Below are positions 30,939 to 60,408 of a stretch of 64,000 bases of DNA, piece after piece (the stretch's first letter is position 1; every line of letters begins with the position of its first letter). This stretch comes from Liolophura sinensis. Its lineage: Eukaryota; Mollusca; Polyplacophora; Chitonida; Chitonidae. The stretch covers positions 75,693,005-75,757,004 of the forward strand of contig NC_088300.1 of NCBI RefSeq assembly GCF_032854445.1, written 5' to 3'. The translations under genes were made by a program, and so were the position numbers. The notes under the pieces are model-generated. The model was given only the letters and a program-made list of their open reading frames with translations. It did no database searches and had not been told where the DNA came from.

Positions 30939-33559
30939 AACCGCCCCGCAATCCCCTCAATTATAATACACGGAAGTATGGCCACACCAACGTTCATAAT
31001 TGCAACCTAGCTCCATTATTTCTTCATCGATACTCGTTAAAAGAAGATATTTACTTACATGGGTGCGTATGTTTAGCTGTATGACGTCATTCTTGTAAAG
31101 TCCCATGCACATGTTAATCCGCGCATAATTTAGAAAAGAAATGGCGCCTTCAGCATACTCCAGCGCATGCTACCTTTCTCGCTACCTTTCGCTTTACATC
31201 ACTGCCACCAATAGCAATTTGTTTTACAGAAATCTTGAACAAGGCCGAGGTCACTGGGGTCACGGTGAAGAGGCAGGAAGTTATGTCAGAAAAGACAAAC
31301 AATCCGTGTCATCCTTTGTCTGTAATAATACTTTATACACATGCATTTTCTTCATCTGGAGAATGTAGAACATGAATTGTAACCCACGCCAAAACAATTT
31401 GATTGATGAATCCTGATTAAATAGTTCCGCGGGAGGACACAAGTCATGAGGCTAATCCACAACAAGTCTACGTGCGTCTCACATGCTCCAAAGATCAAGC
31501 TTGTCTATTGGTGGCAGAGATGTAAAGCTAAATGTAGAGAGTGACGCATGCGCTGTAAGGAATATGCGTGTTCAGTCCGAGTGCAGGAAATTCCCTCAAA
31601 TGTGGAAATCCCCGATGTAAGCGATCCCATAATTACCGCCAAGTGCTCGACAACACATAGCCGGTTCCTTTCATTACGCTTGATTATCACTGCCGTATTA
31701 AACTGGTTTGCCATTTTGACGTCAAACATTCGTGAGTCGGTAATTCACCGTAATGCTGCAGCAGATATATTCCCAAAGCTAATATAAAGCAGGCCTACAG
31801 ACAAAAACCAATATGCGGTTGAATATTAAGTGTGTTTCTGCTCCCTGACATCACTTCCTGTCTAACCACTTGAACTAGGCGCAATGATACTGGTATACAT
31901 CGTACTATTCGTTCAGTTTTCAGTTTGCCCGTCTATCGCTGGGTTGATAATAGTAGCCTATAAGTCACGTGTATCGAGTTGTCCACACTGTCGGCAACTT
32001 GCAGTGTAGGAATTCATGGACGTGACGGAGCAGCTAGATCCTCACTCCTGGACAGGTTACCCGCGAAGGTGGTCGCTGTACATACTATACAGGATACTTC
32101 ACGTATGCATATATAGATGGTTGTATATGAATATTACATATACATACCTTACCCTACTTCATATGAACCTCTCCATAACAATATCCATAGGATCAGGTAA
32201 GCGCCATAGCTACCATGTTTAAATCGCACGTGTCCTTAATCTGATTAATGGGCATCTTGAACCAGTTTGGTTGTTTAGATGCTGTATCAGAAAATCGTCT
32301 TCGTAGAATCCAGCAGGAACTGGGGACTGCACATGTCTCTTACGCATGCGTAGGCTTTCCCAAAGTGAAAACTGGCACATACACACTGAAGGAATGGGAG
32401 CCCTGATCTACGATGTATGATGCTTGAGGGGAAGTTTGACGTCCATGTGGATTATTGTTAGGTATAGGCCTAATTTCTGTTCGGTTAAAATCGTCCAATG
32501 TTATATATGGTATGTGCTGTTAATGCTGTTAATGTGAACCACCGTTGTTACTGATTTACCACACCTTGGAATATAAATTTGTGAAAGTTTTATTCCTCAA
32601 GTCAGGCTTCATCCCTTTACTTTGCCTTCTCAATCATTCATCACATAATTCATTGTAAAATACGAAGATGTATTACCCGTACAAACGTTTCATCTCTTCA
32701 GAAGAGGGACACTCGGCCTGTTTTGTCCAGAGGTTATATACCATAATTCGAAGAGGGTAAGATTATGAAGCTGAGAGAATTCATCTGGTAAAATGTCGAA
32801 TTCTTGGGGTATAAGACATTTTATGAGAGATGTACGTTACGAATAAACTACTGCATTTGTTCATTTACAAAAGGAGTTTGTTAGAAAATATGGAAGTGGC
32901 TACCTAAAAAGTGATATGAGTAGTGTACATAAAACTTGGTGAAGCCTGCTTATACAGTAAGTACAGGTATACAGTAAGGGAAAGCATTTCGCTCTTTTGA
33001 GTGAAAGTATTTATAGAGAGCTGTCTGCACTAATGCGATCTCACTTATGTCAAATTAATCCCGTCAAGAAATAAGAAAAGAACTAGTAGAAACAGTCCCA
33101 AGCAAATGTATCATAACCTGCAAGCGGAAGTGTGAGAACAAAATAATGCTATAACTCCTCCCTCTAACCATACAGACCTACACTTTCACACATAAACTGA
33201 CAATGGCTCAGCTGCACTTTTGCTTAGTACATAAAGTTACAGCAGTCGCATGTTGACGGAAACAATACGATAGATATTAACTTAGCCACTGAGTGAAATT
33301 TGAAAATAAGAAGAAAAAATATGAGTAATTCTGCACTGTAATTAAAGACATTTAACCCTCTCATATTAATATGCTTTTTTCTAACTCTCTTTATAGCTTA
33401 ATTTGTTGTCTTGTTTCTCTCTCCAGGGATTTTTCACTGGTGGACCATCTATGCAAAGAACATGAAGACACTAGTTCGTCCTGTAGAATATTGCTTCTGA
33501 TGAACATTGTTTACCAATAGTTTTAAATGTAACTTTTTGACAGTATAAAAGGACTCAGA

Positions 33560-34381
33560 ATGGATTACCAGTACCATGTGTACATTCTGGAGGACCCAGA
33601 TGACCCGCCCACTGAAATCCAAGACTTCATCACCGCTTTCTTTCAAAGATTCAATTGCCATCCACACAACCGAGGACAGGCGACTTAACGTGTATTTACC
33701 ACGGAACGATGACATAGCAGGAATGACGAAGTTTGATAACGTCCCATAACGCTATAAATAATTCCAATATGATTCTGTGCATTATCTCCCCCTGGAATAC
33801 TCATTGGATTAACTACTGTCGACATGCTAGTTTTTATCAGAAAATCGTGAACAACAAGCGGGATATGTTCATACCAGTATTCCTGGGCTATTCTTCAGCT
33901 GCAGACGCTAACATTGCGTGTCCAGAAGAAATCAGGTGTCAGACGGGGTGATGTTTAAGGCGTCTTGGAGGGACGATGATGACGCGTGGGGAAAGTTAGA
34001 TAGGTCCTTACAGGTACCGATAGAAGCAACAGCGACAGGATCTGGAGGCCCCGCCACACGGGTTGCGATACAATGTACAGATGGTTTTGACCACAGTAAC
34101 GTGAATAGTTTTGTCCTCCGGATGGACCTCCTTTCTCGACCCCAATATCATCACAATCTCATGAATGAAACAGGGCCTGTTCATGAATGGGAGAGTGGAA
34201 ACATCTCCTTCCAGTGGGAGAGAGACATACACTATGCCCGCACCCAGACGTGATCACGTATCCCAAGATCAGATTCTCGAGGTACTTGGTGGCCCCAGTC
34301 TGCTGTCAGCGTCCAGATCCGGTGGTCTGTTCCAAGACAACCCCGACTCTTCCATCAGACATAAAGCCCCTGTTAATATCA
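33560..34381 (+). pseudogene. Exon 1 of the 33 kb TIR-like gene, frame broken
   Basis: The ATG at 33560 starts YHVYILEDPDD, nearly identical to the 58 kb copy, but this frame stops after 42 codons at TAA. The next family block (VYLPRNDDIAG) is in another frame, and MILCIISPWNTHWINYC ... FIPVFLGYSS in a third (33733-33951). After a GGGG run at 33948-33951, where one more G would restore the frame, FKASWRDDDDAWGKLDRSL continues at about 33960. The exon ends with PDSS ... PVNI at a phase 1 donor (A|GTAAGT), the counterpart of PDSSSGRPNAVNA at 58867. Confidence 0.62.
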
Positions 34382-34880
34382 GTAAGTACTAAAAATCTGA
34401 TCGTTGGCTAAGCTACTTATCCTGCGATGGCAGGTCAACCAGAGCATTTTTAGAATTCTCGTGTTCCCAAGCCTTGTTGGGAATTAGCGGTCAACGACGG
34501 TATGTTTCGTGAAACTCGCCGATGACCACTTTACTTCCCCCAATATGTGGGGAAAGTTCATGTTAAAAAGTTTACACCTGGCACACAAGATTTCTCTGCG
34601 CATAAAGCTTTCCTCCATCCTACAAGTGAAAAATTCTAACGTATGGTATTAAGCAACAATCCAGTTAAAGAATTAAATAAATAAATCAAATGTGCTCGGC
34701 AAGTGAAATTTTTGGGCACACTCTCAACATATTTTCATGATTGCTATTTAAGTTTTCTTGCAAAACTGTTTGATTGATCTTTAAAAAGCTGTACATTCCC
34801 TGATCGATTCAGGATACACAGGCACGTACACCATTGAGAAAAAAGAATAAAAAATGTATGCATATTTATCCTACTTGAAG

Positions 34881-35057
34881 TTGGTTCCTCAGATGAAAGG
34901 GCTGATGAAGAAAATGATGTTGGTTCCTCAGATGAAAGTGCTGATGAAGAAAATGATGACAGAAATCTCCCTAGTGAGGTAACAGTCGACATTGACCGTG
35001 CTGGACAAAGTCATCACGCCGAATTTACAGATAGCACGAACCCAAAATTATTGTTCG
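34881..35057 (+). CDS. Exon 2 of the 33 kb TIR-like gene, acidic duplicated block
   Basis: 59 codons, phase 1 at both ends, acceptor CTACTTGAAG and donor TTCG|GTATGT. It opens with a 15-residue acidic unit (VGSSDE-R/S-ADEEND type) repeated twice at the DNA level as a 45-bp duplication. It then carries LPSEVTVDIDRAG ... EFTDS, which resembles the end of the next exon (LPSNVTDDNEDE ... EFTSG). Exons 2 and 3 therefore look like duplicates. No known domain. Confidence 0.6.
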
Positions 35058-35610
35058 GTATGTTTCCCTTTGTTGTAAATATTAAATATTCAAAGTAAAG
35101 CAGGTTGATAATAGGACATAGAACAAAAGAAAAGCACAAGTTTGTGCGCATGCCATATGGTGTCATTGGCATTAGTAGTCTGGAGAACACGACATTGACT
35201 ATCAACCCCAACATTGCCATTACTAGTAGTATTGTGGAAATATGGAAACAATATGGAAACTTTATTTACAGTTTTTATTTGTCTTTGTGTTCAGTTTATT
35301 TATTTATCTTTTTACATGATTGTTACCCAATACTCAATAATTGTTCAGTTTATATATAGTAGAAACCAATATTTCTCTGCATTAAATGTATCATTCCGCA
35401 GTTGTATATGTCTAATATTAAATATGAAAATGTCCAATCATGAATTTATTGACTTCTTATATTTTCAACAAATTGTAATGTGACTGAATATTTTACTACT
35501 CTCACCTAGGTAGAAATATAAGCACTGTGTGCAGATGAAATTTTTGGGGCTCACATCTAGAGGTTCTTTCTTGTCTCTTGGTTGCAAAATATGATTTGTA
35601 AATGTTGAAG

Positions 35611-35760
35611 GTGACTCCCTGGGGTCTGATAGTTGTTCTGGCAGAGAGACCCTCTTAGGACGACTCCCTAGTAACGTAACTGATGACAATGAAGACGAGA
35701 TTAGCGTTGATCATGACAGCAGAGAATTCACCTCGGGAGAACAATCGGATCACAATTATG
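35611..35760 (+). CDS. Exon 3 of the 33 kb TIR-like gene, acidic polar segment
   Basis: Exactly 50 codons, phase 1 at both ends, acceptor GTTGAAG, donor TATG|GTATGT. The peptide is rich in S, D, E and G and shares an ordered set of short motifs (LPS-x-VT, EFT) with exon 2. A minus-strand open frame over the same bases (35465-35689) is judged a shadow. Confidence 0.55.
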
Positions 35761-35984
35761 GTATGTAAAAGCCCACAGCCAGAACCGTGGGCGTCTCTCG
35801 TTGAACAAACTCTGTAGGGTTCTATCTGTGGTATCTTCCTACTCGTCTGCCTTTAAAGTAATGTATGTTGTAATGCAAATTGCTCATTACCTTGGATTTT
35901 TATCAAAGCCAACAATATGTCACTACTTGGGGACATTCCTCTGGACGCATTCCTTAAATCAGTTAATGCTTTTTTTTTTTTGAG

Positions 35985-36044
35985 GTATGTCACATTTGAT
36001 TGATTCTGCATATTCCTCTGGCGATGGTGGACAGTCAAGAAATG
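35985..36044 (+). CDS. Exon 4 of the 33 kb TIR-like gene, small
   Basis: Twenty codons between a poly-T tract ending in TGAG and the donor AATG|GTAATA, phase 1 at both ends. The peptide is Ser/Gly rich. The size is a multiple of three, so skipping it would keep the frame. The pyrimidine tract supports the acceptor; nothing else does. Confidence 0.45.
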
Positions 36045-36336
36045 GTAATAAGTTTTATTGCCTGAACATTTAAGAATTCTTGTACCTCACTGTTTTTTCT
36101 TCGTTCAATAAAATCCATTTGTTATACCATCTTTTATTTGCATTTAACGTAAAGAAGACATATTTTTCTTATATACCAAATTAATTTTCTGCAAGTTTAA
36201 TATTGGTATGATTTTTGACAAAGCTTGCCCAAGTAATTGACCCAGGTAAGGCATAGTAAAGGTCGTTCCATTGTCCGAATAGTTAAGAACCAAACGTACA
36301 ATAAGATGGAAGATTTTTGCCGGCTCATTCGTATGA

Positions 36337-36760
36337 GTCGCTCTCACTACAGGTGACAAGACCTTTCCAAGTGCTCCCAATATATGTGTTAAGTCTTTTC
36401 CCACTGCTCTGACTACAGGTGACAAGACCTTCCCAGTTGCTCTCAGTATAGATGACAAGTCTTTTCCCACTGCTCTGACTGCAAGTGACAATTATTTTGC
36501 CAGTGCTCTGACTACATGTGAGAAACGCTTTCTCGGTGCCCTGTGTACTAGTGACAAAACCTCCAGTGCTCTGGCTACAGGCGACAAGACTTTTTCCAGT
36601 GCTCTAGTTACAGGCGACAAGCCTTTTTCAAGGACTTTAACTGTAGGTGACAAGCCCTTTTAAAGTGCTCTGACTGCAGATTACAAGCCTTTATCCAATG
36701 CTCTCATTGTGGTTGACAAGTTTTTCATGTGTTCTCACTGCAGGCGACCAGCATTTTTCC
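36337..36760 (+). repeat. 33-bp tandem repeat with an open 11-residue peptide frame
   Basis: About twelve diverged 33-bp units containing CTGACTACAGGTGACAAGAC lie between exons 4 and 5 of the 33 kb gene. On the + strand one frame is open from 36337 to the stop at 36661-36663 (108 codons, no ATG) and reads as 11-residue units of GDKTFPSALTT type. One unit has lost exactly one codon. Most units contain ACAG|GTGACA, which can look like a 3' or a 5' splice site. It may be a cassette exon region or simply a minisatellite. Confidence 0.6.
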
Positions 36761-36897
36761 TTGTGACTTTGCGTGTTTAACTGTACTGCATTTTTTTAGT
36801 CAGTAATCCACTCATAAGCCTCATTCATGACTAGTATTCTTGAGTGAGTGCAGCATAAAACAGATTGGATTAATCACAGTGTTGTCGTTGTGGGCAG

Positions 36898-37268
36898 GTG
36901 AGCAGCGAACTGGGACAGATGAGCTGCAGACTGGGGCAGGTGAGCTGCAGACTGGGGCAGGTGAGCTGCAGACTGGTCCTGATATGCAGCAGAAGGGGAC
37001 AGATTTACAGCAGGATGTGGAAGGTGCGCAGAATGTGCTTGGGGATTCCAGTACAACCTCTGAGAGGTGCGGCAAGACGGTGGCGTCTCATGACGTGGAG
37101 GATCATCATCCGCATGGCCCTTTGCGGGACGGGGAGGCCAGTGGAGGGGAAGAGAGTGGTACATCAGTTCTGAATCCAGCCCAGAACGCGGGCGGGTGCG
37201 CAGGCATTGCTCTAGGAAGGTGGGCGGCGCGGGCATTTGCTATGTGGGAGTTAATACAGTATTATTGA
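36898..37268 (+). CDS. Last exon of the 33 kb TIR-like gene, repeats and YY tail
   Basis: Acceptor TTGTGGGCAG, phase 1, open to TGA at 37266-37268. It begins with three 7-residue units (GELQTGA type, 21-bp repeats), followed by a Q/E/D/G-rich stretch, NPAQN, and the ending GRWAARAFAMWELIQYY. The 58 kb gene ends in GRVFSSVWNLLKYY and also has an NPAQN motif, so the two last exons are homologous. The ending could form a short amphipathic helix. The open minus-strand frame (36874-37236) over the same repeats is judged a shadow. Confidence 0.6.
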
Positions 37269-38743
37269 TGTTCCCAAGAAGGCAGTAGCAAAAATAATTG
37301 CGTTTTGTGTAGGTCGGAATCAATGGGCAACTTCCCTTTGTATGTCAACATTGTTACTTAGTACGTTTGTTGTACTAATCCTCACTATTACTCCAGTCTT
37401 CACACTCACGTGAAGGACTGAACCCAGAACATTATAAGGTTGCATAAATTCTGTGAGGTTCCTGTTTTCTTCTTAATGACAATGTGCTCTTATTTGTCTA
37501 TGGCAGAGTATGCCTACACATACCGGTACTTTCAACTTTAGAAGGCAGTAAAGGTTTCATACATCAGGAAATGTTTAAATTCCGATGAATTATCCGTGAA
37601 TGTCATGAATAAATACAATTTCTACATCAATCGTATCATTTGGCCAAAATCTACAAAATAGTTGTGACAGTAAGTTATACGAGAGTCAACAGGCCAGGTT
37701 GACGCGTACAGAAAACCTTGTTGAGAAGAGCAAAACTTATTTCACGGTTAAAGGGAGAGAACCCGGATTTAGAATCATACAAAATTTGTGAAACGCTGGT
37801 GTAAGGAAAATAAATGCCCCCCCTGTCTATTGTCCAGGGCTTCATAAATAAACAAACAAACAAATAAATAAAGGAAGAGTTCGGAGTTTGCTTACTAAGC
37901 AAATGTATAATGTAGCCCGCCTCATAGGCCAAAACCACATGTTACTGCCAATTGGTACGACGAGACTGTGACTGTTTACGGTGACCAAGTGTAGAGTGAG
38001 TTGTCCAGGGATGAAGAAATATAGTAGGTTCAAATTTATGTTATTGTTGTTTTAACGCCATACACTTATGGCAATGTACAAAATTTCCGGTCAAAGTCCG
38101 GGTTTGAACTTGCATCTGGTTTGTCCTAGCTACTGAATGCCAAGTTTCTCTAACCTCTATTCCACTCACCTACTAGGCTGAAGTGGAGTAGTATGTTATC
38201 ATATGTATTTCTGGCGAATAAATCTGTCTTTATGTAAATTTCGAAATTCGTGAGCCAATAGCTAATAATTAACGGTCATTCTAAGTTGCTTAACTTAAGC
38301 TGACGCTTTTTAAAAAACAACCCCCACATAAAACAGAACTTAAGCGTCACTATGTTACCGTTAAAAAGTCCATACCACAAATTTGTGGTAGAAAAATCTA
38401 TCAACGGAAACCCAATCAAATTTTTGCATTTATTTTAACATAACGCTAATTTTAAGGGTATTTTCATTTTAACGGTAACGACGTTCCTGAAATTTATAAT
38501 ACGAGTAGCATTACAACTTTTTCAAACTTTTGAATAATTTTAACACTTTATATAAATAGTCCAGGTACGAGTCTGATATTTACTGAAAGGCAATACATTT
38601 GAGACATTCTTATTAACTACAAAATATTTGATTTTATTAATATGGATGACGAATGCGGCCACTGGCTTCTACTGGCTTGTATGTAGCCGCCACCTTCAAT
38701 ACCCGCTGGTCGACATTAACAAAAATAAATCATCACAAACTTG
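37269..38743. other. No recognisable gene
   Basis: Downstream of the 33 kb gene. Contains the putative polyadenylation signal at 37606; otherwise unassigned AT-rich sequence with no repeat seen by eye. Confidence 0.4.
37606..37611 (+). terminator. Possible polyadenylation signal
   Basis: AATAAA 338 bases after the stop of the 33 kb gene, on the same strand. It is the first good match downstream, but AATAAA is common in this AT-rich DNA, so the assignment is weak. Confidence 0.3.
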
Positions 38744-39450
38744 ACCCGCAGGTTTTATGACAGGACGCGAGATTAGTAAACTGCGCGATTTTATTGCTAC
38801 TCTAGTGCAGTTTGTCAAAATCGTTTTCACCCCGCTGGTTTTATGACAGGACACGAGATTAGTAAACTGCGCGATTTTATTGCTATTCTCGTGCAGTTTG
38901 TCAAAAACGTTTTCACCCCGCTGTTTTTATGACAGGACACGAGATTAGTAAACTGCGCGATTTTATTGCTATTCTCGTGCAGTTTGTCAAAACGTTTTCA
39001 CCCCGCAGGTTTATGACAGGACACGAGATTAGTAAACTGCACGATTTTATTGCTATTCTCGTGCAGTTTGTCAAAAACGTTTTCACCCCGCTGGTTTTAT
39101 GACAGGACACGAGATTAGTAAACTGCGCGATTTTATTGCTATTCTCGTGCAGTTTGTCAAAACGTTTTCACCCCGCTGGTTTTATGACAGGACACGAGAT
39201 TAGTAAACTGCGCGATTTTTTTATTGCTATTCTCGTGCAGTTTGTCAAAACGTTTTCACCCCGCAGGTTTATGACAGGACACGAGATTAGTAAACTGCAC
39301 GATTTTATTGCCATTCTCGTGCAGTTTGTCAAAAACGTTTTCACCCCGCTGGTTTTATGACAGGACACGAGATTAGTAAACTGCGCGATTTTATTGCTAT
39401 TCTCGTGCAGTTTGTCAAAAACGTTTTCACCCCGCTGGTTTTATGACAGG
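38744..39450. repeat. 87-bp satellite-like array, eight copies
   Basis: Unit GCTGGTTTTATGACAGGACA + CGAGATTAGTAAACTGCGCG + ATTTTATTGCTATTCTCGTG + CAGTTTGTCAAAAACGTTTT + CACCCCG. Copies are nearly identical apart from A-run and T-run length. Pairs of copies share variants (AACGTTTT with CCCGCAGGTTTATG), which suggests a two-unit higher-order pattern. Confidence 0.95.
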
Positions 39451-39654
39451 GCGAGAACTTCAGAAGTTCGCGGCTTCAGAAGGCGAATGGCCACATCCAT
39501 CTTCCTGGGATGAGACAATATGACTATTTTGCCAACAAGTTACGGTATACAACCTCTTTAATAACCCAATGACATTCCTCTCTGATCTGATGTGAGAGCT
39601 TCTCAATCAACAATTGACATAAAACAACAATTCTAATAAGAATCGAAGTCCGGA

Positions 39655-39932
39655 GACCCGGGATCAAACCCGGGTCGGGTCACACCAAAGACTTTAAAAA
39701 TTGCACTACTTGTTGCTGCCTCGCTTGACGCTCAGCACTTAGAGGTCAGAACAACGAAACAGGACTGGTTGGCCTGGTGTCAGTATAATGTGACTGGGAG
39801 GGGTGTCACGCCTGTGAGGTCGGCATGGTACTTGCCACAGAAAAACACAGTATGTATACACACACTTAATGACTCCTCGTCGTCATATGACTGAAAAACT
39901 GTTTTAAGTGCGACGTTGAACACCAAGAATAA
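39655..39932 (+). mobile_element. tRNA-derived SINE
   Basis: GGGATCAAACCCGGGTCGGG (B-box region), then CAAAGACTTTAAAAATTGCA, TTGCTGCCTCGCTTGACGCTCAGCAC, and an end CGTCATATGACTG ... GCGACGTTGAACACCAAG. Shares the middle with 23398-23605 and a form of the end with 19313-19648. Confidence 0.7.
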
Positions 39933-43229: not shown

Positions 43230-44790
43230 AACGTTCAGTTTGAAGCCCAACTTAACTGCACTACTATCCAGGACAGAATTGATCTTATCGAGTGACTTTA
43301 ATGTTGACCTGTTGAAAGACCCTCTTTCTAAATAGTTTTCCTGTATTAGAAATAGCAATTTGACCCAGATGGTAGATAAGCCAACTCGAAAAGCTCAACT
43401 TTAATGAATCACATCTACAGGACTCATCCTGAAAAGGTTTACCATGTAAGTGTCACCCAAATTCAAATTAGAGATCACTTTCCCATTTTCATGGCACGAA
43501 AATGTAACTTTAATCTAACGACCAAAAAAACACACACGTCATAAAACAATGCGCTATAGTGCAGGCTACCGTGAGTAGGGTTTACATGTACTATAGCTGC
43601 ATTGGCTGGACGGTAAGTTGAGTTAATTAATCACGCAGTTGAGGTAATTCCCTGGCTTCGTCTGCTTACAAAATGTCTTGATCTCAAAACATCCAGACTG
43701 GCTGAACGAAGATATTATTCTTGCTATATGAAAAGAAAAACACAGCAATCAAGCAAAGAGAAAAAGGAAGCTAAATAATAACGTAAATAGGAAAATTTAT
43801 CAGGCAAAAGCTAACTTTTTGCAAAGACACTATTGAAAATGGAGCTGGTAAACACTTCTTGGGATATTATCAAAACCTCTGTCCACCGAAACAAACAGGC
43901 CCACTACTTACTCTTAAAGCTGAAAATGAATCGGATATCAAATTACATGAACATCTCTTTCACAAGTATAGCACAAGAGAAATGATGATATTTGAGAACT
44001 TGATCTTAAAACGATAAGAAACCATGTTTCATCAAAACTACCCCCAGAAAAGAAGTTTCAGATTTCCCCTGTTTCTGATTACTTTGTTAGGAACTACCTG
44101 TCATTGTCAACTTGGCAAAGACAAAAGTGCTGAGGACGCTTGCACAAAGTAATCGTTGGCTGTGTTGAATGTAACTACCATGGCGACACATGTTGAAAGC
44201 ATATGTTGCCATGGTAGTTACCGTCAACTTAGGCTATGATCGCTTTGGGCAAGAGACCATGGACTAGATAAGACTGACAGGTAGTTACTTACGAAGTAAA
44301 CAGAAACAGGAGGAGTCAGACCTTGTTTTTTTGGAGGTAGGTTAGATTAGACATAGTCTCCTAGCGTTTTAAGATCAGGCTCGCTTAATACTCCCCGTTA
44401 AAAGTCAACACAGGAGTTCCTCAGGGATCCATACTTGGGAAAATGGTTTTTATAATTTATGTTAATGACATGGTGCCCGCAATGAATGTTTGTGTTATAG
44501 ATATGTATGCAAAAGACACTACTATTCACTCCTCTGCCAAAAATCTAAGTAAAGTGGAAACTACACTGAATGCAGATCTTCGTTTAGGAAAATGGTGTAG
44601 AAATAATAAGATTTCACAACATCCTGGAAAAACAAAATGTATGATGATTGAAAACAGTAAAACATTGAAGCCTCAGTCTGGAAAACGCAACGTACAAGTC
44701 AACTTGAATGCAGTTGAGGCTGTCAGCTGTCAAAAATCCTTGGCCTACAAATTGATAATACACCGTCTTGGTCTAAACTGATAGATGTCA
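43230..44790 (+). mobile_element. LINE fragment (endonuclease end and reverse transcriptase), interrupted
   Basis: At about 43270-43500 the translated + strand shows a decayed apurinic-type endonuclease end (S-DFN-x-DLL, then SDHFPIF). From 44400 it gives reverse transcriptase motifs: TGVPQGS-like, FIIYVNDM, and YAKD where YADD is expected, followed by LGKWCRNNKISQHPGKTKCM. The catalytic motif change and frame breaks mean it is inactive. The 5' part and 3' end are missing or unrecognised, and a foldback sits inside at 43995-44385. Confidence 0.8.
43995..44385. mobile_element. Long palindromic (foldback) element inside the LINE fragment
   Basis: The left arm starts TTGATCTTAAAACG, the right ends CGTTTTAAGATCAGG. 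They pair across the whole length, including CCTGTTTCTGATTACTT with its partner AAGTAAACAGAAACAGG and AACTACCTGTCA with TGACAGGTAGTT. The centre is the tight hairpin GTAACTACCATGG ... CCATGGTAGTTAC around 44171-44221. Arms are about 190 bp with almost no spacer. No coding capacity. Confidence 0.88.
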
Positions 44791-46861: not shown

Positions 46862-47035
46862 TTTTTTTTTTTTTTTTTTTTTTTTGATTGGTGTTTTACG
46901 CCGTACTCAAGAATATTTCACTTATACGACGGCGGCCAGCATTATGGTGGGTGAAAACCGGGCAAAGCCCGGGGGAAACCCACGACCATCCGCAGGTTGC
47001 TGACAAACCTTCCCACGTACGGCCGGAGAGGAAGG
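46862..47035 (-). mobile_element. SINE inserted in the LINE, with target-site duplication
   Basis: A 5'-truncated copy of the 40.5 kb family with its poly-A tail (a T run at 46861-46885 on this strand). GAACTTGTGTTCTT flanks both sides (46850-46863 and 47034-47047), so the insertion is younger than the LINE. Confidence 0.92.
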
Positions 47036-47625
47036 AACTTGTGTTCTTGCAGGCTGGCTATTTCAACGCCATGCAAATATAACGGTGGCGGAAGTGTCTT
47101 ATTTTTGAATACATTTATATGCATGCATTTTGTTATACTAATATTAAGGGACAGGCGGTTAGCTGTAAGCCAGTCGAATATTTTATGCAACCCTACAGAC
47201 ACAGTGGATGCAGCCTCGGTGCTTGTGGGCGCATAAGTGCAGACACTGGTATCATCAGCAAATAATGTAAAATCCAGAGTATCTGATGATGCTGTGATGT
47301 CATCAATGTACACTAAAAATAATACAGGACCGAGAATGTAGTCATGGGGAACACCACAATCTACCTTACGGTCTTTTGACATATTTCCGTCAGAGAGAAC
47401 TGATTGGGATCGATAGATAGTTCTCAAACCATTGAGCGCTGTGAGCTTGAAACCCATAGTATTCGAGTTTTTGTAGAAAGTTTTTGACAGGTCAAGGAAA
47501 GTCACGACAGAATGTTGTCTGGCGTGGGTAGTAGAGTGACCAGTTCTAAAACCACATTGGTTGGGCGAAATGATGTCATTGGCTGTCAGAAAATTATTCA
47601 TCATGTTTACAACTATTTTTTTCAT
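46942..47625 (-). pseudogene. LINE reverse transcriptase core
   Basis: Contains NQCGFRTGHST, VTFLDLSKTF (where DLSKAFD is usual), CGVPHDYILGPVLFLVYIDD and FADDT, then WLTANRLSLN. The D/FADD catalytic pair is present, but the palm between DLSKTF and the next helix is shortened, and the frame runs into the SINE at 47035. Confidence 0.88.
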
Positions 47626-48290
47626 TTTTGCTCAGACTAGGTAATATCGAGACAGGACGGTAGTTTGTGATGTCATTGGCGTCACCACATTTAAAGATGG
47701 GGGTAATTTTTGCACATTTAAACGAAGACAGCATATATCCCGACATAAGGGACAAATTAAGTATATGTGCAAGGGGTGATGAAATATCTTTTGCAAGAAG
47801 TTTGAGCTCAGACATGAAAATGTCATCTAAGCCTGGAGCTGATGACTTTAGACTGTCTATAGTGGTTTCAACAAGACTAGGCGAGACAGGAGAAAATTTC
47901 TTTTACAGGTTCACCTAGAAAATCTGAAAAATGTTTAGGGCTTGGGGGTATCTTAGCATTAAGACTGAGACTAATAGTCGAAAAAAGTCTTTTGCAAATG
48001 ACACTTTTATCTGAAACAGATAACCCATCAATATTAAAACATTTAGGCATGCTCTTGCATTTACCACGTCCCATTAGATCATTCAATACTTTCCAAGTTC
48101 CTTTAATCTTGTGATTTTGGTCGTTTAGTTTTTTTTTCTCGAAGTAAGCCTTTCGCCAGAAACGAATCAAGTTCAGTTTATTCCTGTACGTCCTATATTT
48201 GACGCAAGTCGGTATATCAGAAGATTTCAAATACTTCGACGAAGTTTGTTCTTCTTGAATACAGACTGTAGAATACCTCGTATGACCCAA
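47594..48290 (-). pseudogene. LINE ORF2 linker and fingers
   Basis: Two overlapping frames (48290-47877 and 47815-47594) carry YRNKLNLIRFWRKAYFE, TWKVLNDLMGR and the fingers motif KITPIFKCGD ... NYRPVSILP, in the expected order before the reverse transcriptase. A frame change near 47870 separates them. Confidence 0.85.
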
Positions 48291-50085: not shown

Positions 50086-50089
<4 letters not shown>

Positions 50090-50205: not shown

Positions 50206-51150
50206 TTACCAGTTGGGAAACGAAGGGAGGGGACAATCCCTGGCATTGTTCTTCCGACGCCTGTCTTCGGGGGCCAGATCTTTCAGGAGTTCCTTGGCCT
50301 TAAATAAAACTTTTCTACGCTGGGGACAGTACAAGAATTTAGCCAAAATATGGCGATTTTGACCACCGCTTTGTTTTCCCACCCGGTGGGCGTTTTCAAT
50401 ATTGATGTCCTTCGGTTTCAGACTGTCTTCAATAACAGACTTTACAATCTGGAAAGCATTTTCATCAGACTTTTCATCAATTCCTCTGAAACGTAAATTA
50501 TATCCCAGACTATACCGTTCCTGGTCAACGATTTTTTTCCTGAAGGTCACGGTTTACCACAGGAAGTGCTTGCATATTGGATTTAAGTTTTTTGATTTCC
50601 TCGGCGAGACACTTCTGAACTGTGTCCATAATTTGAACGATAGAGTCAGTATGAAATGAGAGACTGTTACGTTCTTTCAAGTTGAGAGAGGCGCTCTAGT
50701 GAACTTTGCTGAGTTGCATGTACCTTGTACAGAGTTTTTTGATTGTCACTCACCCAATTCATTATAAAATCACGGAACTTTTTGTCTTCGTCGGGTTGCC
50801 CAACGACCTCTTCAGTCTCAACTATCAACTTCTCCCTCATCGCCAGGATCACTGCAGTTTAGACCTTTGGATTGGCTTCTTGTTGTAGACCTAAGACTTT
50901 TGTTGGGGTTGTCCGATTTCTGAGACTGGGGTGGCATAGTGGTGGTTCTTGTTGTAGCTCTAAGGCTTTTATCAAAGTTGTCCGATTTCTGAGGCTTTGG
51001 TGGCACGGTGGTATGAAGCAGATCCCAATATTTATGGCTAGGATAACTTCTGTTCACTGAACATTGCTGGGCGCAGCTGGGCACTGACGGAGCTCCACAA
51101 CAAAGCACGTCCTCATCCAAGCATACTTCGGTCAGATAATACCGGCACAA
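50206..51150 (-). pseudogene. LINE ORF1-like RNA-binding protein, broken
   Basis: Three frames in order: a P/S/T-rich N-part with an internal tandem duplication (51150-50818, QKSDN ... SLR-x-TTR twice), a helical segment (50852-50667) and an L1 ORF1-like RNA-binding part (50550-50206) with YNLRFRGIDE, ENAHRVGK and ILAKF motifs. At least two frame breaks separate them. This type of ORF1 chaperones element RNA. Confidence 0.78.
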
Positions 51151-51169
51151 TTCTCTACATTTCCCAGTC

Positions 51170-51312
51170 AGAGGTATAAAAGTTGTTTGAATGCATCCCC
51201 AAAACGTTGCGTTGTCATAGAATAGATGGTTGGATAGTAATAACGGTCAGATATGCACTCTCTATCCAAAACTCCAATGTTTCGTGCAAATGAGGCTCCG
51301 TGTTTTAAATTT
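51170..51312 (-). repeat. Dispersed repeat, copy 2
   Basis: Partner of 110-285, in the same orientation, lying just upstream of the LINE ORF1 region. It may be the 5' untranslated part of that LINE or an unrelated repeat next to it. Confidence 0.55.
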
Positions 51313-53380
51313 ACTGTATGAAGGTCGACATGTATACAATGTGCTACAAACGGTGTCACAACAATATTCTGCTGTGTTTGCTGAGCGTTTCCACATATAG
51401 TATTTAGTGGAAGAATTTGTTCTCCAAAAAATAAAAAAAACATTATAAAATTAATATAAAGTAGCAATTAAAAAATAATAAGTGCAAAATATTACATTTT
51501 TAACCATTCGTCTTGCGTACTGTCCCTTATGAAGACACAGAAAACACCGATGATTAGACTTTAAAAATTCAGCACTAGGTTTTACATAAGAGCAGAATTA
51601 TATACACATTTAACCATCCATGACCATGTTTTTGGCTTGTTTTATCTCATTGTCCGGCATGTCAAGCCGTTGCGTCGTTAGCAAAATGCCAGCCGCAGCA
51701 ATTATTGTGTACAGGATAGCCTCTTCTCGTTACAGCTTCTTTTGGACATATCAGCGGCTTAATATGCATGGGATCAATGCTGTTCAGTTAACTCCATGGT
51801 ATTTATCGAAACTGCAGTCATTTTATTTCTGACAATAAGTATTTTCTGTATACTTTCTTACAGGCTCTAGTATGTTATATTATATAGGTGTATGTATACA
51901 GTTTGAATTAACTCGAAAAACAGCAAAATTCGAAAATTGTTGAAAGGTAGGTCGAGCTGGTGTTTTTATATGCCTTTTCGAAAGCGATACTCTGCATCTC
52001 CGTAGACGTGCACGCGCATGACCGCTTTACTCGAGATCGTGTGATGGCTTATAGGTTATACGTGCACAGTCCGGGAAAAGATTTGCCACCTAGCTGAAGA
52101 GTAAGGGTGCATTGATTGGATACTGCTACAGGCATTTTAGATTGTTGATACATTGTAAATATCTCCACAGCTATTTTCCACCTTGTTAAAATATATCAGA
52201 ATTGTGTCTGTTTTGGAACCTGAAAACCTAGTGTTAATACCTATCTCCCTGGAGGTTACCAAGGTAACAAAATGTTACGACTACACTTCCACCTCTAAAA
52301 AATGATGGTCATGCTAGGTTGATTTTTTTATATGTTGTACAGAAACATTCAAGCTACATGTGGTGGTAGACAAATTTACTACATAAATAGTGAGGAAAAT
52401 CATTGCGCTCGTGTAATCTATAGGCCATACGACATCAACTCTATAGGATCAGACATGGTAATTTACAGTGTAATTATGTAACGAAGGACAAGGCCGGAAA
52501 CACTATTCACTGATTTTAGAAATAAATCATTCCTCCCTTAATTTTACCGTCTTAGGATAGATTGATCCAGCCTCTTACGAAAGGAATGGGAAATGATTCG
52601 TGGTCTACAAAAGTGATATCTCTGTAAGCTGGCAACTGAAAACAATACAGAATTTGTAAACATCAGGCAACACTTTGTTCATTTCACCTCGACTGGATCA
52701 GCTTAGCCGCACCTGTCATTTCAGTGTTTCTTTTTCTTATAAATGTTACTTCTGTTTATTTCATCCAAATTGGATCCACTTATCCCACATTTCACTTACA
52801 CGAAATGCACATATGCATACATAAAGTATCCCACAAAAAATGTACCTTTTTATATTTGTGATGTTGCATAACTGAGATATCTCCTTTCGAAGGATTCTAA
52901 ACTGCGCTCATTGATAGGGTCAAATTCGCCCCCAAGTTATTAGTTTTAACCAATCAGGCTATGACTACTCATTCCTATGACGCCACTTTTAGTTTAGCCA
53001 TACTTGGTACTGGTTTTTCTAACATGACATATCATATGACCACACAAAAGTTGTTCCACAAAATGTTGATTTATGAAGATATCAAGCACGTCAGAAAAAA
53101 TAGTTGTGGCCGTTTCTACACCTCTTCCAAAATAACTTGGGCTATATTACCTGTTGTCATTTCCTTTAAATATTTTATTTCATGACCTGTGAAACCATAA
53201 AACCATAAGACCATACTAGCTGAGAAAAAAAACGCAAACAGAATGTTCATGCGTAAGATGGAAAAAAGTGTATCGTGTTTCTTTCGCAAATCTCATCCTG
53301 ACCAGATCTACGCACAGTACACCTACACTTCCCAAACCAATGTTTCTGTTCTAGACTATCTAAGATCTAAAACCGATCTT
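51313..53380. other. No recognisable gene
   Basis: AT-rich. A word of the CTG(A)AAGCTGGCAA type at about 52627 belongs to the family described at 53380-53640. Otherwise nothing assigned. Confidence 0.4.
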
Positions 53381-53640
53381 TCTGAAAGCTGACAATTTAA
53401 AACAAAAGAAAATTATTAGTGCTATTTTTGTTCATTTCAATCCAAACTGAATAAACTTTCAGTCTACTGATTCTTTTTATGACTTGTAAAACTGAAACTA
53501 TCTTAAAGCTGGCAATTTTTAACAAAATAAAATATATCAGTATAAAATGTTACTTTCACTCCAATAATTCCTTTAATGGCCTGTAAGCTTTTCTATCTGA
53601 AAGCTGGCAACTTAAAACAAAGCAAAATGTCTTAAGTATA
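53380..53640 (+). repeat. Degenerate tandem repeat of about 100-120 bp
   Basis: The block CTGAAAGCTGGCAATTTAAAAC recurs near 53383, 53502 and 53598, each followed by an A-rich stretch and a TTACTTTC-like block. Related single copies are seen at about 52627 and 57217. Confidence 0.55.
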
Positions 53641-53832
53641 AGCTGCTACCTTTGCTTATGTCCATACGACTGGAACAACTCACATTTACATTTTTCTCCG
53701 GTATTTCTTGTCATAATACAGGTATATATAAATCCAAACGTCAGATCTGACATTCGTGTACCATTCAAACTCGCTCTTAGATCGGTTAGCCATGATCAAG
53801 CCTAGTTTCCACATTAACCGCTCTGAACCGTT

Positions 53833-54498
53833 ACATTCACTACCCTGGAACTCGGTCCTGTCATCTGCGCTGTCTCCAAAGTGCCAACGCTGTACGTCAC
53901 AAAGAGTTGTCCCGTGATCTTAAAGTCATTCTGAATTCATATCACCTCATTATGTGGGAATAATAAAGACCATAACATCGCATATAACACACATGTAACC
54001 GACCCACTAGGACGGCATCAAAACTTCGTAAGCCGCCATTTTCAATTCACGTGACTCGGTTGCTAGGGTGGACACTGCTGCTCTTCCCAAAATTAAGACC
54101 ATCTTTTTTTTACAATATAATTGATTACAAATCATTCCTGTTCATTATTAACGCACAAATTAAAGTTAAGACTCCCAAACAATTTGTCAATCGTCCTTTA
54201 GATGGTCTACATCTTATTGGTTTCAATCAAATAGTTCCACGAGTTTACCTTTTTCCAGACGATGCTCAGTGGGGCCGACTCAAATTGCAAAATTTCGGTT
54301 AGCGAAGTTTGGCTTGCCGCCGATGTAACAGATACATTTGTGTTAGTTGTGACGTTGTGGTCTTTATTATTCAAGAATAACTAGGTGATATGAAGTAAGA
54401 ATTACTGAATGGTTACAGGAATCATGTTTTTGTAGCGTACAGCTTTGGAATGTTGAGGACAGCACACGCGGAAGAACAGAGTTCCAGGTTAGTGAATG
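53833..54498. mobile_element. Foldback element with about 200-bp arms
   Basis: The left arm (53833-54040) and right arm (54297-54498) are diverged reverse complements: CATTCACTACCCTGGAACTC against GAGTTCCAGGTTAGTGAATG, ATATCACCT against AGGTGATAT, GAATAATAAAGACCA against TGGTCTTTATTATTC. The 250-bp centre includes most of an 83-codon frame (54051-54302) with no known domain. Confidence 0.78.
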
Positions 54499-55969
54499 GA
54501 AGAGTACAGATCTGTATTTCTGAAAGCTAAGCTGTGAAGAATGAAACAGATCTCAGATCTACATTCGAACTGTAAATGGACGTTCGGAGTCGATTTTCGC
54601 AAGATTCATTTCCAAAACAACCTAAAACAACAATTTCCAAATGAATATGTAAGAAATGATATATAAGCAGTAAATAAAGATGGTAAAAAGACTGACGTAG
54701 TAATTAGTTTTCCATGATACAGGAAGGACAGCCGTTTTGGATGGATCAGCTTATCGGATGTCTCGCCACCACTTCTCGTTACTTTTCATTCCAAGCAATT
54801 GTAACGTCATAAGGTCACAGAAAGTTCGAACATTTGTGACCATTTGTAACGGATGACCTGTTTGCACCAATACTGCTTATGATTGGTCAATAGCGTGTTT
54901 TTGATTGACAGTTTGGAAAGGTCTGTTTTAAGCATGGTATCCCATTCTAATTTCAAACTCGTATTATATAGGCCTAGTATTGTTAATACTTCAAGGTGGT
55001 TTTAAGTGCTGTGTTGGTATCTCAGTCGCGCATTCCGAATAGCCTACAATACATGTAGGCTATGTATAGTCGCGTACAATAAAAAATGTGGACGTCAGCG
55101 TCATCTATCAGTTTGAAGTTCAAATTAAACTGCGGCCCCCATATTACCCAAATCTTTCAAGTCTAGCTACTCGTATTCCTCTCTTACCTCTCAGATAAAA
55201 AAAATGGTAACAGCAGATGCGGCTATCTTTTGCAGGTAAAAAACTCTTTTTGTCCTGTAAATGTGTTTCAAGCTGTTTCCTGAGGGTCAAACTGCTTGAA
55301 AATTTGAGAAAAAGAGCTCGTCAACGAGCTGTTTTCATAACCGTAGGCAAAGCAGCAAACCATTTCGGAACAAATGCGATATGCTTGTTGTCATTCTTGT
55401 AACTTTTTTAACACTGAACTAAATGGCAAAGCTCTGACAGCTCGTAACGGTTGAACTTGTATGACGTAATTCGACGGAGACTACAGAGTTTTGGCGGGAA
55501 AATGCATAAAACCAATCTCATTATCTAGGAATTTTAAGTGCCATATTACACCGATTAATGTACAATTTTTCAATAATTTCGTAAACGCAATGTAACAATA
55601 AATACAGGGGTAAATTAATTATGAGTAAATTATGAATCTGAACACTAATCTTTTAATTGCTTATTTGGTCTTTAGTCCCGAATTAAGCTGACATAGGTGT
55701 AATTATAACAACTAAACTGACGGCCAAAAGAATCTTTACAAAGAGTTCAAATCAATTTTTTTGCCAACGCAAAAAAACATGATGACTAAAGTTTAATATA
55801 CTGAAAAGACCAATGACTTTAGATATTGAAAGTCTTCAGTAAGAGCGGACAAAGCAGCCCTCAAAATCATTATACAAGTGAACAAGCAGAGCTGGGGTAC
55901 AAAAATAGCCATTCCATCTTGGTTAACAATGGGTAGAATATACAAAAAGTTGATTATTTTTAAAATCAG

Positions 55970-56890
55970 TCAATAACAAAACAAATCAATATCGCGTGTG
56001 GCCACAACTTTCCGACGCATAGAAAAAGTTAGTCGTCTGATGAGATGACGTGGGATTTGTTGACATTTATCTTGGAGAGCGAACGCCAGTTCTTGTCGGT
56101 TGGCTGCAAGGTGTGGCCTTTGTCTTACTCGACGACCCATGATATCCCAAGGGTGTTCTATGGGGACATATCTGGGGACATATCTGGGGAACGTGAAGGC
56201 CACGGCAAGACGATGACGTCCGCACAGGACACCACGTGGCTGCTATTGAAGGAATTGCAGGACAACAGGGCGTATAATTTCATCGACGTAACGTTGAGCT
56301 GTTAGGTTCCCGTAGATGATGACCAGTGGTGTCCGTTCCTCTCCACAAATCCCACCCCACACCATAACGCTGCCGCCACCAACCACCTACTGGACGCAGG
56401 ATGCAGCCGTTCGTTCGCCTCTTCGACGATAAACTCGCTGTCTGCCATCGTCTCGGAACAGGCAGAAGCGACTTTCATCCGTGAAAACAACACGTTGCCA
56501 ATCACGTCGCTGCCAACGGCGAACAATTCGAGCCCATTCGAGGTGTTCGGCTGTCAAGAACTGCCCTCTGAATGGTCGATAGGCCTAATTCCGTGAGCCA
56601 GGAGTCTCCTGGACACAGTCGGCCGACTGACTCGGTGACCTAAGGCATTGATTGACGATGGGGTCACTGTCAGGAAGCGGTTCCTCAGGTGTAAGATGCA
56701 CAGGTACCGTAGTTACTCTAGGCCTGACTGTTTTTTGGCCTGTCCGATGTCTGCCCTGCCTGTCTGTAACGTTGCATCAAGTTTGACACAGTCACACGAG
56801 AGCAGAAGGTCCTTGCAATGTGGGCATGGGTGGCTCCCTAGATACCATACCAAGGGTCCTCTCGCGTTGTTCTTGAGTCAATCGAAGCAT
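55970..56890 (-). pseudogene. Tc1/mariner-like transposase, dead copy
   Basis: On the minus strand from ATG 56890: LRLTQEQRERTLGM, then in other frames LMQRYRQAGQTSDRP (the helix-turn-helix end), SRWLVAAA-type core pieces, and finally IEHPWDIMGRRVRQRPHLAANRQEL (55970-56203), the conserved end of the DDE domain. At least four frame changes; no single frame spans the catalytic core. No clear terminal inverted repeats were found at either side. Confidence 0.88.
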
Positions 56891-57299
56891 TACTTTGGTG
56901 GTTTTTAGTCAGTGTGCAAGTCCAGCACATTGTGTGTAAGGTTTTTATACATTGTGCGTTGCGGCCATCCATGGGTCACGTGATTTTTCAACTTTCTTCG
57001 TTGTCCCAAAACAAATTCGTGTGGGCGTATATGACGCTTGTCGCACATGGGAATATGCTTCATACAATGGTTTCCTACAAGGTATTATTATTAATTTGCT
57101 GAAAATGCTGGTTAAATTTAACTCACGGAGTCGTAAAATTTCTTTTGGCCGTCAGATATTTGAACATATCACCAGAGGTTTTGAACGCTCTGTCCATAAA
57201 AACTATAAAACTGATCTAACTGAAAGCTGGAAATTTAAAACGAACAAAAATGCCTCAAATGTTACTTCTGCTCATGTCAAGGTGAAAGGGTCGAAAGTT

Positions 57300-57956
57300 A
57301 CACCTTCTATTTAGACCTATGAATGCTACACGATACACCTATGTAAATATTGTGTTTGATGGATACGTTTGATATACACGAGTAAAAGATAGCTTTGATG
57401 TCTGTAGAGAATAGAATATTGTTGAATATTTAATTTCAGTACTTGATTGTCGGCATGACAGCAGGCTTCCACACTACAGCGAGCATATAAGAAAGGCACA
57501 TAGTAGCACATTAAACCCGAAAGTTGCAGGTAGTGTGTCGTGTTGAGTTAATCCCCATAGGCAAGATAGTCCAAAATATCACGCATCTCACAAGTGGTAT
57601 TTAGACACTACTGTAACTGTAAAGTGAACGAGTTAGAAATGAAAGGTAAAACTGGAACATGGCCTGGAGATAGGTGACATATCACTCACTACCTCTAGCT
57701 GATTAACCATAGCTGGATAATTTATGTTGACTGTAGAGTTGTCCTAAAGAAAGACTAACATTTACGCCTTATAGCCCAGGCTAACAAACTTCAGCATACA
57801 TACGACTCGGTCATGATCTGATCTTTGTGCTATTTGAAATTACCAGTATGTGACCTTGGTGATGATTTGCCTTTACTAAATGTACATGTTTACAATGAGT
57901 TAAAATTCAGTTTTCATTTTTATTGTTTTCTGGACGATCGCTATGTTTTGTTTCAG
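57300..57956. other. Upstream region of the 58 kb TIR-like gene
   Basis: No open frame with known motifs. It must contain the end of an intron (acceptor at 57955-57956); an upstream non-coding exon and promoter are expected but could not be placed. Confidence 0.35.
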
Positions 57957-60408
57957 GTACTATGTAGACACGTGAATTTAGTGCCTTCACGCCATCGTTT
58001 ATTTTCAAATGTCGTGAACTATAAAGGAAACCATGAGTAGTGGGACGGACGACAGATATCACGTGTACCTGATAGAGGATCCAGAAAACCAGTCAGATGA
58101 AATCCGAGACTTCATCAACGTTCTCTCTCAAAAGTTCGATTGCCTTGGTAGCCATCCACAGTGTAAAATATATTTACCGAGGAAATGTGACATCGCCGGA
58201 AAGTGCAAATTTTATAATGTTTTTCAAGCCATAAGACAATGTGAGATGATTCTTTGTATAATCTCACCATGGAATACCAACTGGATCAAGTACTGTCAAT
58301 CGTCTAGTCTGTACAAGTCAGTAATCAACGGCAACAGGGATAAGTTTATACCGGTGTTTCTGGGGTATTCGTCTGTAGAAGAAGCTCTCCGAGCTTGTCC
58401 CAGAAGAGATTGAAGATCAAACCAAAGTGATATTTAATAGGCAGTGGAGAGAAGATGCTGATTCATGGCACAGTTGCGCAGGTCTTTGAACCTTCCAGAG
58501 GTACCATTAACAACGCCTTCTGATGAGATTTACGGAGCAGTACAATGCTCTGAAGATTCTACTAGGCAAATGGAAATGAACATGCGTGCAGCACTGGAGG
58601 AGAGTTCAGACGAGTTGTTCACGGATGAGCCTCCGTTCTCCGTGGATGACGATGCTATCAGTGTGCCTGATAGTGCCGACGAGAACGTCTCCTGTCATAG
58701 AGCAAGATCACTGGCAAGCACTTCAAACCAGAGAATCTCGGACCAAGGTTCTAACCCCGTCAGGTTCAGCAACAAAAAGCCAACTCGTCTGCCTGACTGC
58801 AGAAGCAGCCATTTAGTCACTAGCAGCCCGGATTCCTCATCTGGACGTCCAAATGCGGTCAATGCAAGTATGTCCCAATGGAGAATTGTTTCCAATTTTC
58901 AGAAGTTGGTCTGTATATGTTTAATTCAGTAACACTTTAGAAACCCGATTTAGTCCCGCATATGTATAGTATGGCCCTAAACTTGTGTTGTAATCTTAGA
59001 CCAAAAAACAGAATAACTTTTCCCTCTTCTCTGCCCGGTTTCCTCCCACCATAATGCTGGCCGCACTCGTATAAATGGAATATTCTTGAGTATGGCGTAA
59101 AACATCAATCAAATAAATAAATAAATAATTAAATAAATAAATAAACGTTTATGTCGGCAGACTGTTAACGTTTTACTCGTGCATTGCAGGAGAACAATGG
59201 TTAGGTGAGTTTGGAGTCGCGTTGCCCATGCGCGTTTCTGTACGTGTAAGGTTGGAGACACCGTACCCAAAACTAGTGATGCGCTACCAGAGGCTATGCC
59301 TGGATACTTACTAACAACGTCTGATAATGAATTAATATTTGAATTATATTAAGGGTCTATTACCCAGAATTTGCCCTGAACTGGGCCCATTTTTAAACAT
59401 CACCGCATTACGTGTACAAGTTTAACATCTTGGAAATTAAAATATCTCATTTTAAGAAGTAATGTACTTGTACAGAAGAGAAAATGGGTGGAAAAATTGG
59501 TCTTAAAATTGACCTTTTAACGAACAAAAAACATAGACAAAAACGATGAACTTTCTTGAATATTTAAGAATTGCACTTTGCTTAATCCGAGTTAAGGAAT
59601 TAGGGGTACAGAATAAACCCAAACAGTCTCGCGAGTTAAGGTAGTTTTAGGCGAGATATGGTTGGTGCTTTGGCAAACTAACGCGGCTAAAAAACATGAT
59701 GTTACGACAGCTAACAACCGCGCCTTTGAGCCAGGTAATGCAAGATTTATATTCATTCAATCACCTCTGTAATTCAGTTCAGCAACTACCGTAAAATTAC
59801 GCCTTTTACCTGCGTTAGTTTGCGAGAGCCCCCACCTTGTTTCGCCTAAACTTGCGTGAACTCGCGAGATACATCCAATTTCTCTATAACTATAAGGTCA
59901 TTCGTATTCAGCTTTCGCTAGTTCGGCGGTGACTTTAAATCAGGTCATATGTCAGGTACACATTCGCCGTCGTATTGGTGAAAATTCTTGAGTAAGGCGG
60001 TAAACATCTAACATATAAATAAATATATTTAAAATGGCTTTATTCTTTTCAGATGCCTCCGTTGAATCACACTGTGTTGACGCGCAGAATGAGACTCAAG
60101 TCAAGCAGATAGATCATGTCAACAGTAACTATGAGAATAACCCCGCCCAGAACAACTGTACCAGTGGAGAAGATGAGAGTATCGTCGCGGAGAACAACTG
60201 TACCAGTGAACAAAACGAGGGTATCGCCGCAGAGGACAATTCTACCGGTGGCCAAGACGAGAGTATCCCCCGGGATGGCAACTATAACAGCGGGCAAGAA
60301 CAGGGTATCCCCGAGGGGGACAACGGTATCAGTGGACAAGAAAATCAAAGACATTGGTTTTTGGGAAGGGTATTTTCTTCTGTATGGAATCTTTTGAAAT
60401 ATTACTGA
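57957..60408 (+). CDS. TIR-like domain protein with repeat-rich tail, whole gene
   Basis: The transcript segment starts at the splice acceptor ATGTTTTGTTTCAG|57957; ATG at 58033. Main coding exons are 58033-58867 and 60053-60408, joined in phase 1, with a possible 15-base microexon at 59190-59204. Residues about 8-150 are TIR-like: YHVYLIEDPEN (box 1 position), YLPRKCDIAGK (box 2/BB loop position), MILCIISPWNTNWIKYC (central strand and WC-like motif), FIPVFLGYSS, and a W-x-L-x-x-SL box 3 position. No glutamate follows the WC-like motif, so an adaptor-type rather than NADase-type TIR is more likely. Two one-base shifts interrupt exon 1 (near 58400 and 58469); both look like single missing or extra bases and together restore the family reading. 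The rest is a S/D/E-rich spacer and a last exon of 14-residue repeats ending in WNLLKYY. Confidence 0.62.
58033..58867 (+). CDS. Exon 1 of the 58 kb TIR-like gene, two frame breaks
   Basis: Frame A (58033-58413) gives 126 residues including most of the TIR-like domain. At ACPRRD the paralogue reads ACPEEI, and one C fewer in the CCC at 58399-58401 restores that reading. The next stretch (EDQTKVIF ... REDADSW) is in a second frame, matching DDQTHIIF in the minus-strand paralogue. At TCATGGCACAG (58465) one more G would carry W-AQLRRSLNLPE into the frame open from 58465 to the donor at 58868. The end of the exon (PDSSSGRPNAVNA) matches the end of exon 1 at 34381, with the same phase 1 donor position. 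Confidence 0.62.
59033..59145 (+). mobile_element. SINE 3' end in the intron of the 58 kb gene
   Basis: GCCCGGTTTCCTCCCACCAT + AATGCTGGCCGC, TGGAATATTCTTGAGTATGGCG, ATCAATC and (AAAT)n: 3' half of the 40.5 kb SINE family on the plus strand. Confidence 0.88.
59190..59204 (+). CDS. Possible 15-base microexon
   Basis: GCATTGCAG|15 bases|GTGAGT has a good acceptor and a near-consensus donor, and 15 bases keep the phase 1 to phase 1 frame, adding about five residues (REQWL). No paralogous exon was found, and a match this short can occur by chance. Confidence 0.22.
   Translation, partial: ENNG
59625..59871. mobile_element. MITE-like element in the intron of the 58 kb gene
   Basis: Inverted ends GTCTCGCGAGTTAAGGTAGT ... 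and ... ACTTGCGTGAACTCGCGAGAT, with further inner pairing (GGCAAACTAACGC with GCGTTAGTTTGC, TTTAGGCGA with TCGCCTAAA). About 247 bp, no coding capacity, terminal repeat of about 60 bp. Confidence 0.75.
59964..60027 (+). mobile_element. Short SINE 3' end fragment
   Basis: GCCGTCGTATTGGTGAAAATTC + TTGAGTAAGGCGGTAAACATC and an A/T-rich tail: the last 60 bases of the same SINE family, directly before the last exon of the 58 kb gene. Confidence 0.65.
60053..60408 (+). CDS. Last exon of the 58 kb TIR-like gene, 14-residue repeats and YY tail
   Basis: Acceptor TATTCTTTTCAG, phase 1, open to the TGA at 60406-60408. Five imperfect 14-residue (42-bp) units of the form N-x-[TS]-[SG]-x-Q/E-[DN]-E-[SG]-I-x-x-[ED]-[DN] fill about residues 30-100 of the exon, and NCTS, NSTG and YNSG recur in them. 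They follow a short NPAQN motif. The end, GRVFSSVWNLLKYY, aligns with the end of the 33 kb gene. The minus-strand frame (60067-60423) is judged a shadow of the repeats. Confidence 0.62.

Follow-up and report, generated by a model that had tools for sequence, protein, structure and literature searches.

Does a 30-kb stretch of a chiton genome hold a fast-evolving family of immune sensors? A sequence-only reading of the 64,000 nucleotides of Liolophura sinensis DNA analysed here (the window) had proposed three loci with a common TIR-like domain, two of them sharing also a splice plan and a C-terminal tail, with unlike, repeat-built middle exons as expected under diversifying pressure. Our searches of the literature for chiton TIR domains together with Toll-like receptors, and for Polyplacophora immune genes together with TIR, returned no report. 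Our analysis indicates that a small diverged TIR group is real and consists of two copies with a common gene plan and one open TIR-only frame. On balance, we favour the reading that all three form one orphan TIR family, in which loci 1 and 3 would have been constrained adaptors or decoys that are now pseudogenes, while locus 2 would be the likely survivor. Three related TIR-like domains were found in the window, all within 30 kb. Together with the candidate exons that belong to them, they are located as follows:

28826..29422, minus strand: TIR-like frame of locus 2, open, 198 aa with stop, its ATG just past an acceptor-like TCTAG site
33560..34019, plus strand: TIR-like domain of locus 1, with three frame changes within the domain
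34020..34381, plus strand: rest of the first coding exon of locus 1, with a putative further frame change, ending in phase 1 before donor GT 34382
34881..35057, plus strand: candidate middle exon of locus 1, an acidic tandem repeat of 13 aa, both boundaries in phase 1 by eye
36898..37268, plus strand: candidate last exon of locus 1, 7-aa repeats, terminus GRWAARAFAMWELIQYY-stop
58033..58413, plus strand: TIR-like domain of locus 3, 126 codons open, with an early stop just past the first frame change
58462..58867, plus strand: rest of the first coding exon of locus 3, original frame open again, phase-1 donor GT 58868
60053..60408, plus strand: candidate last exon of locus 3, 14-aa (42-nt) repeats, terminus GRVFSSVWNLLKYY-stop

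The relationship of the three domains rests on direct homology. The domain of locus 3, whose homology spans 58033-58497 (+), matched locus 1 at 33563-33930 (+) in three pieces and frames (E 5e-28) and locus 2 at 29416-29066 (−; E 1.2e-12) in tblastn searches of the window, where all other matches had E ≥ 3.9. Against the genome, the locus 3 query gave four matches in the same three places, two of them being pieces of locus 1, and the locus 2 query gave three matches at E ≤ 10, again in these places; further copies were found with neither query, in searches that weak matches may escape. The domain common to three loci was thus confirmed by homology, but locus 2 lies outside the interval 33427-60408 originally assigned to the family and lacks several of the motifs quoted for it: it reads ITPYSTRWTHFC and FVGFPT where ISPWNTxWIxYC and F[IL]GYSS had been given. 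Box 3 (W-x-x-L) reads WGKL (locus 1) and WGRL (locus 2), and straddles a frame change in locus 3. We found nothing in the window that explains a start at 33427. A search of a viral collection with locus 3 yielded four pattern matches, none of them a relative, and the three domain stretches had no match in NCBIfam or PADLOC.

We employed profile searches and structure models to assess whether the domain is a TIR. In Pfam, TIR_2 was the best match for each of the three loci, for locus 1 in a scan that covered the piece 33748-33936 only. An HMM search against TIR profiles, suggested earlier as a check, ranks TIR_2 on top in all cases, but with 14.4, 12.9 and 14.8 bits (E 0.16 for locus 2) it stays under the curated cut-off of 28 bits. 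A joint profile of the three loci aligned to a profile of 22 chiton TIR domains (drawn from the best 24 of this genome's TIR_2 matches, which number at least 117) with E 1.4e-5 and a probability of 79.9% (hhalign, each E-value referring to one comparison), while the controls, the reversed profile and a two-sequence profile of chiton SEFIR domains, gave E 0.16 and E 0.14, respectively. Single loci scored lower against the chiton TIR profile (locus 3, E 2.5e-4, 43%; locus 2, E 4e-4, 35%). Against PDB, a profile built from the window sequences retrieved six sequences at E ≤ 5, of which the top five are Toll-like receptor chains (E 0.069-0.32). Another profile, with locus 2 as its lead sequence, had two hits, Toll-like receptors as well (E 0.14 and 0.87); the only hit of locus 2 alone against PDB sequences was a non-TIR protein (E 0.45).

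AlphaFold models of loci 3 and 2 were weak (pLDDT 51.3 and 50.6), with the beta-alpha elements in the right order. In Foldseek, the weak locus 3 model had chains of SEFIR or TIR type at ranks 1-6, with a best E of 2.3e-3, ranks 1 and 2 being prokaryotic SEFIR chains. For the weak locus 2 model, BtTir occupied ranks 1-2 (9.2e-3), and below it came a mixture of flavodoxin-like folds and more TIRs; neither model had a Foldseek hit under E 0.001. VIA-align pointed to a flavodoxin-like fold, but with non-TIR chains on top (a glutamate-receptor domain with Z 6.8, FMN-binding flavodoxin-like proteins with Z 10.7), so its lists do not tell TIR from other flavodoxin-like folds. Structure prediction, the other check proposed for the domain, yields a Foldseek list for locus 3 with SEFIR and TIR chains in the lead, but at a pLDDT of 51 and with VIA-align being non-specific, the models at most weakly support a TIR fold for the loci. 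Homology to the TIR superfamily is supported at the profile level. The original TIR assignment is upheld by the profile-profile comparison with its reversed control, the sub-threshold TIR_2 top hit in Pfam and the Toll-like receptors that head the results of the PDB profile search.

Loci 1 and 3 have more in common than this domain. With splice sites judged by eye, the donors of locus 1 (34382) and locus 3 (58868) read GTAAGT or GTATGT in phase 1, and the acceptors before 34881 and 36898 (locus 1) and before 60053 (locus 3) accept phase 1. The splice plan ascribed to the two loci therefore fits, and splicing of the candidate exons appears plausible on this basis. The middle (linker) sequences of the two loci do not align. 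Tandem repeats in the candidate exons have units of 39, 21 and 42 nt, all multiples of three. A 33-nt repeat array with 11-aa ALTTGDKTFPS-like units (36340-36704), just upstream of the last exon of locus 1, contains an in-frame stop and could be placed in no exon. In Pfam, the last exon of locus 1 had no match up to E 5, and matches of the last exon (E 0.051 and 0.2) and linker (E 0.55) of locus 3 were weak and unrelated. Against the genome, the last-exon protein of locus 1 matched itself only, and that of locus 3 matched itself and, weakly, four other places (E 0.09-0.93).

The tail W-x-L-[IL]-[QK]-Y-Y-stop, claimed as common to both last exons, is indeed present at 37245-37268 and 60385-60408, its only two occurrences in the six frames of the window. 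Its strict form had no match in 300 simulated windows and a loose form 0.017 matches per window. Genome-wide, four matches were found, and the two outside the window are the ends of stop-to-stop frames (32 and 18 codons) that show no resemblance to our loci; the reversed pattern, as control, matched 32 times, a rate at which well under 0.01 matches are expected per 64 kb. Two YY tails within 23 kb, on one strand and each behind a related domain, are at such a low expected rate not due to chance. Downstream of locus 2, a search of the minus strand (14.0-28.8 kb) for a W-x-L-type YY tail found none.

But, are these genes intact? Within the domain, the homology of locus 1 shifts frame three times; it passes through three frames, then resumes an earlier one before the linker, and one more frame change is needed to reach the donor. 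Locus 3 has two frame changes in the domain: it is open over 58033-58410, the homology then leaves the frame for about 65-70 nt and returns, and the original frame contains four stops in the off-frame interval. A DNA alignment of the two loci has one gap of 7 nt and four of 1 nt in its first ~451 columns. By eye, the lesions are not common to both loci, and about six frame changes fall within 1.7 kb, none of them in a long homopolymer. Locus 2 alone among the three copies is open throughout. The earlier description of the loci as genes had left out these breaks, which disrupt the domain frame in both plan-sharing loci. The candidate linkers and last exons of loci 1 and 3 have no stops in their own frames, and a loss of the two loci, if real, would thus be recent. 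Both are probably recent duplicated, non-processed pseudogenes.

Two other accounts of the broken frames have to be weighed. Locus 3 might be alive, encoding either a truncated TIR-only protein that ends at 58413 or a longer one from which an unrecognised intron removes the broken stretch. Most of the domain lies in its first 126 codons, which are open, and 94 GT-AG pairs formally restore the frame, six among the pairs listed matching the proposed donor in score (7). However, protein conservation in loci 1 and 2 extends over the stretch that rescuing introns would skip. Each of the six introns with the best scores (165-351 nt in length) would delete the conserved strand D or more, and the gaps between the homologous pieces of locus 1 (about 22, 4 and 17 nt) are too narrow for introns; we hence regard a live locus 3 as rather unlikely. 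Alternatively, the frame changes might be assembly errors, or stem from one bad haplotype, in a family that is intact. The assembly has a HiFi coverage of only 14x and a heterozygosity of 1.24% (PMC11068029), which together with the open candidate linkers and last exons favours such an explanation, whereas some six changes within 1.7 kb outside long homopolymers oppose it. So does the state of other TIR genes in the same assembly: among the 117 TIR_2 matches, 70 fall within open frames of at least 600 aa, amounting to 61,178 codons when summed per match, or ~60,000 as two of the matches (on C6, 0.5 kb apart and with 1148 codons each) probably represent a single frame, although this control is biased because broken genes would sit among the 47 shorter frames. 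Stops within the TIR_2 matches were found in four of 117. Taken together, we consider an artefact quite improbable and continue to favour decay of loci 1 and 3.

The mode of divergence bears on the proposed immune role. Across 132 aligned codons of loci 1 and 3, substitutions were counted at 36 first, 26 second and 66 third positions. Domain dN and dS were 0.29 and 1.60 (NG86) or 0.26 and 1.07 (LWL85), corresponding to a dN/dS of about 0.18-0.25, with dS near saturation and the compared pieces chosen as alignable; YN00, one of three methods, gave nothing. The divergence of the domain in the two loci is constraint, not diversification. The initial proposal, a functional family of immune sensors whose ends are conserved while the middle exons diversify, would account for a domain and tail that are conserved around unlike, repeat-built middles. 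Against it stand the constraint in the alignable part at this dN/dS, a family of three copies found in genome searches that may miss weak matches, and the broken frames of both copies that share the plan, and we thus abandon the notion of a diversifying immune family as highly unlikely.

How might the present state of these probably decaying orphan TIR genes have arisen? We suggest that loci 1 and 3 derive from one gene by an old duplication, a gene that would have encoded a TIR domain, a low-complexity acidic linker and a short aromatic C-terminal tail. While both were alive, purifying selection would have kept the domain. Their product may have worked in the cytosol as a TIR adaptor or decoy without enzymatic activity, through TIR-TIR contact and a flexible linker, and the hydrophobic aromatic tail might have docked to a membrane or a partner. 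Frameshifts in the domain would then have arisen in both loci, apparently independently, leaving locus 2 with its open TIR-only frame as the likely surviving member. The splicing, the adaptor or decoy role, the function of the tail and the loss of function are what we infer. A more far-reaching scenario would make the family chiton-lineage pseudo-TIR adaptors (helix-C Glu to Cys) with an acidic repeat tether and a W-x-L-L-x-Y-Y docking motif that some chitons still express, with a dominant modulating effect on Toll signalling, and that are being lost here; we regard this as a doubtful speculation.

Between loci 1 and 3 lie reverse transcriptase fragments at 46942-47631 (−; RVT_1, E 6.9e-14) and at 44389-44778 (+; RVT_1, E 1.1e-6, 29.0 bits, just below the cut-off of 29.6), a satellite array at 38745-39450 (86-bp unit, 8.2 copies, 95% matches) and a 69-bp tandem repeat of two copies at 50877-51012, inside a 142-codon minus-strand frame without Pfam match at E 0.01. 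Tandem repeats at 20338-21020 (−) have several frames open, with units like VVYSGYMTVGGLLWVHDGRWFTLGTRRS. Genome-wide, at least 117 TIR_2 matches, many of them belonging to long open frames that cluster on C13, C11, C12 and C4, were found along with three SEFIR matches. To a chiton genome with this TIR repertoire, our results add an orphan group that lies under the threshold of the standard TIR model. The loci may show how TIR accessory genes can duplicate, retain their ends and then decay, and the idea of diversifying immunity gives way to constraint followed by probable loss.

The helix-C residue sets this group apart from the TIRs compared. All three copies read W-[IT]-x-[YF]-C in helix C, compared to W-C-x-x-E in the chiton TIRs and Toll-like receptors examined. 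The cysteine faces the helix-C glutamate in TLR2/15 and chiton-profile alignments of all three copies, while it is paired otherwise in a weaker TLR5 alignment; within nine residues after it, no copy has a glutamate. In TIR NADases the helix-C glutamate is catalytic, and as it is missing in all three copies, NADase activity appears unlikely. Likeness to the TIR NADases (SARM1, BtTir) lies in the fold-level match of the weak models to BtTir, while their helix-C glutamate is absent here. With TIRs of the Toll-like receptor/MyD88 type, the loci share the strand and helix order (in the weak models), the position of the BB loop with its Gly, an S/T-P after strand C and a Trp in helix C. They differ in an Ala before the BB-loop Gly, where the usual TIR consensus has Pro and the residue varies among chiton TIRs, in Cys for the helix-C Glu and in a score below the curated cut-off; no receptor or Death domain was among the Pfam hits of the five stretches scanned. 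Orphan TIR proteins are described as occurring widely among invertebrates, and roles as adaptors or regulators are put forward for them as hypotheses only (PMC6321704; PMC6836662). While a repeat linker and a YY tail, both present here, are not mentioned for the ecTIR-DC orphan families in those passages, our loci resemble them, by description only, in a TIR that stands without leucine-rich repeats in the frames seen (PMC6321704; PMC6836662).
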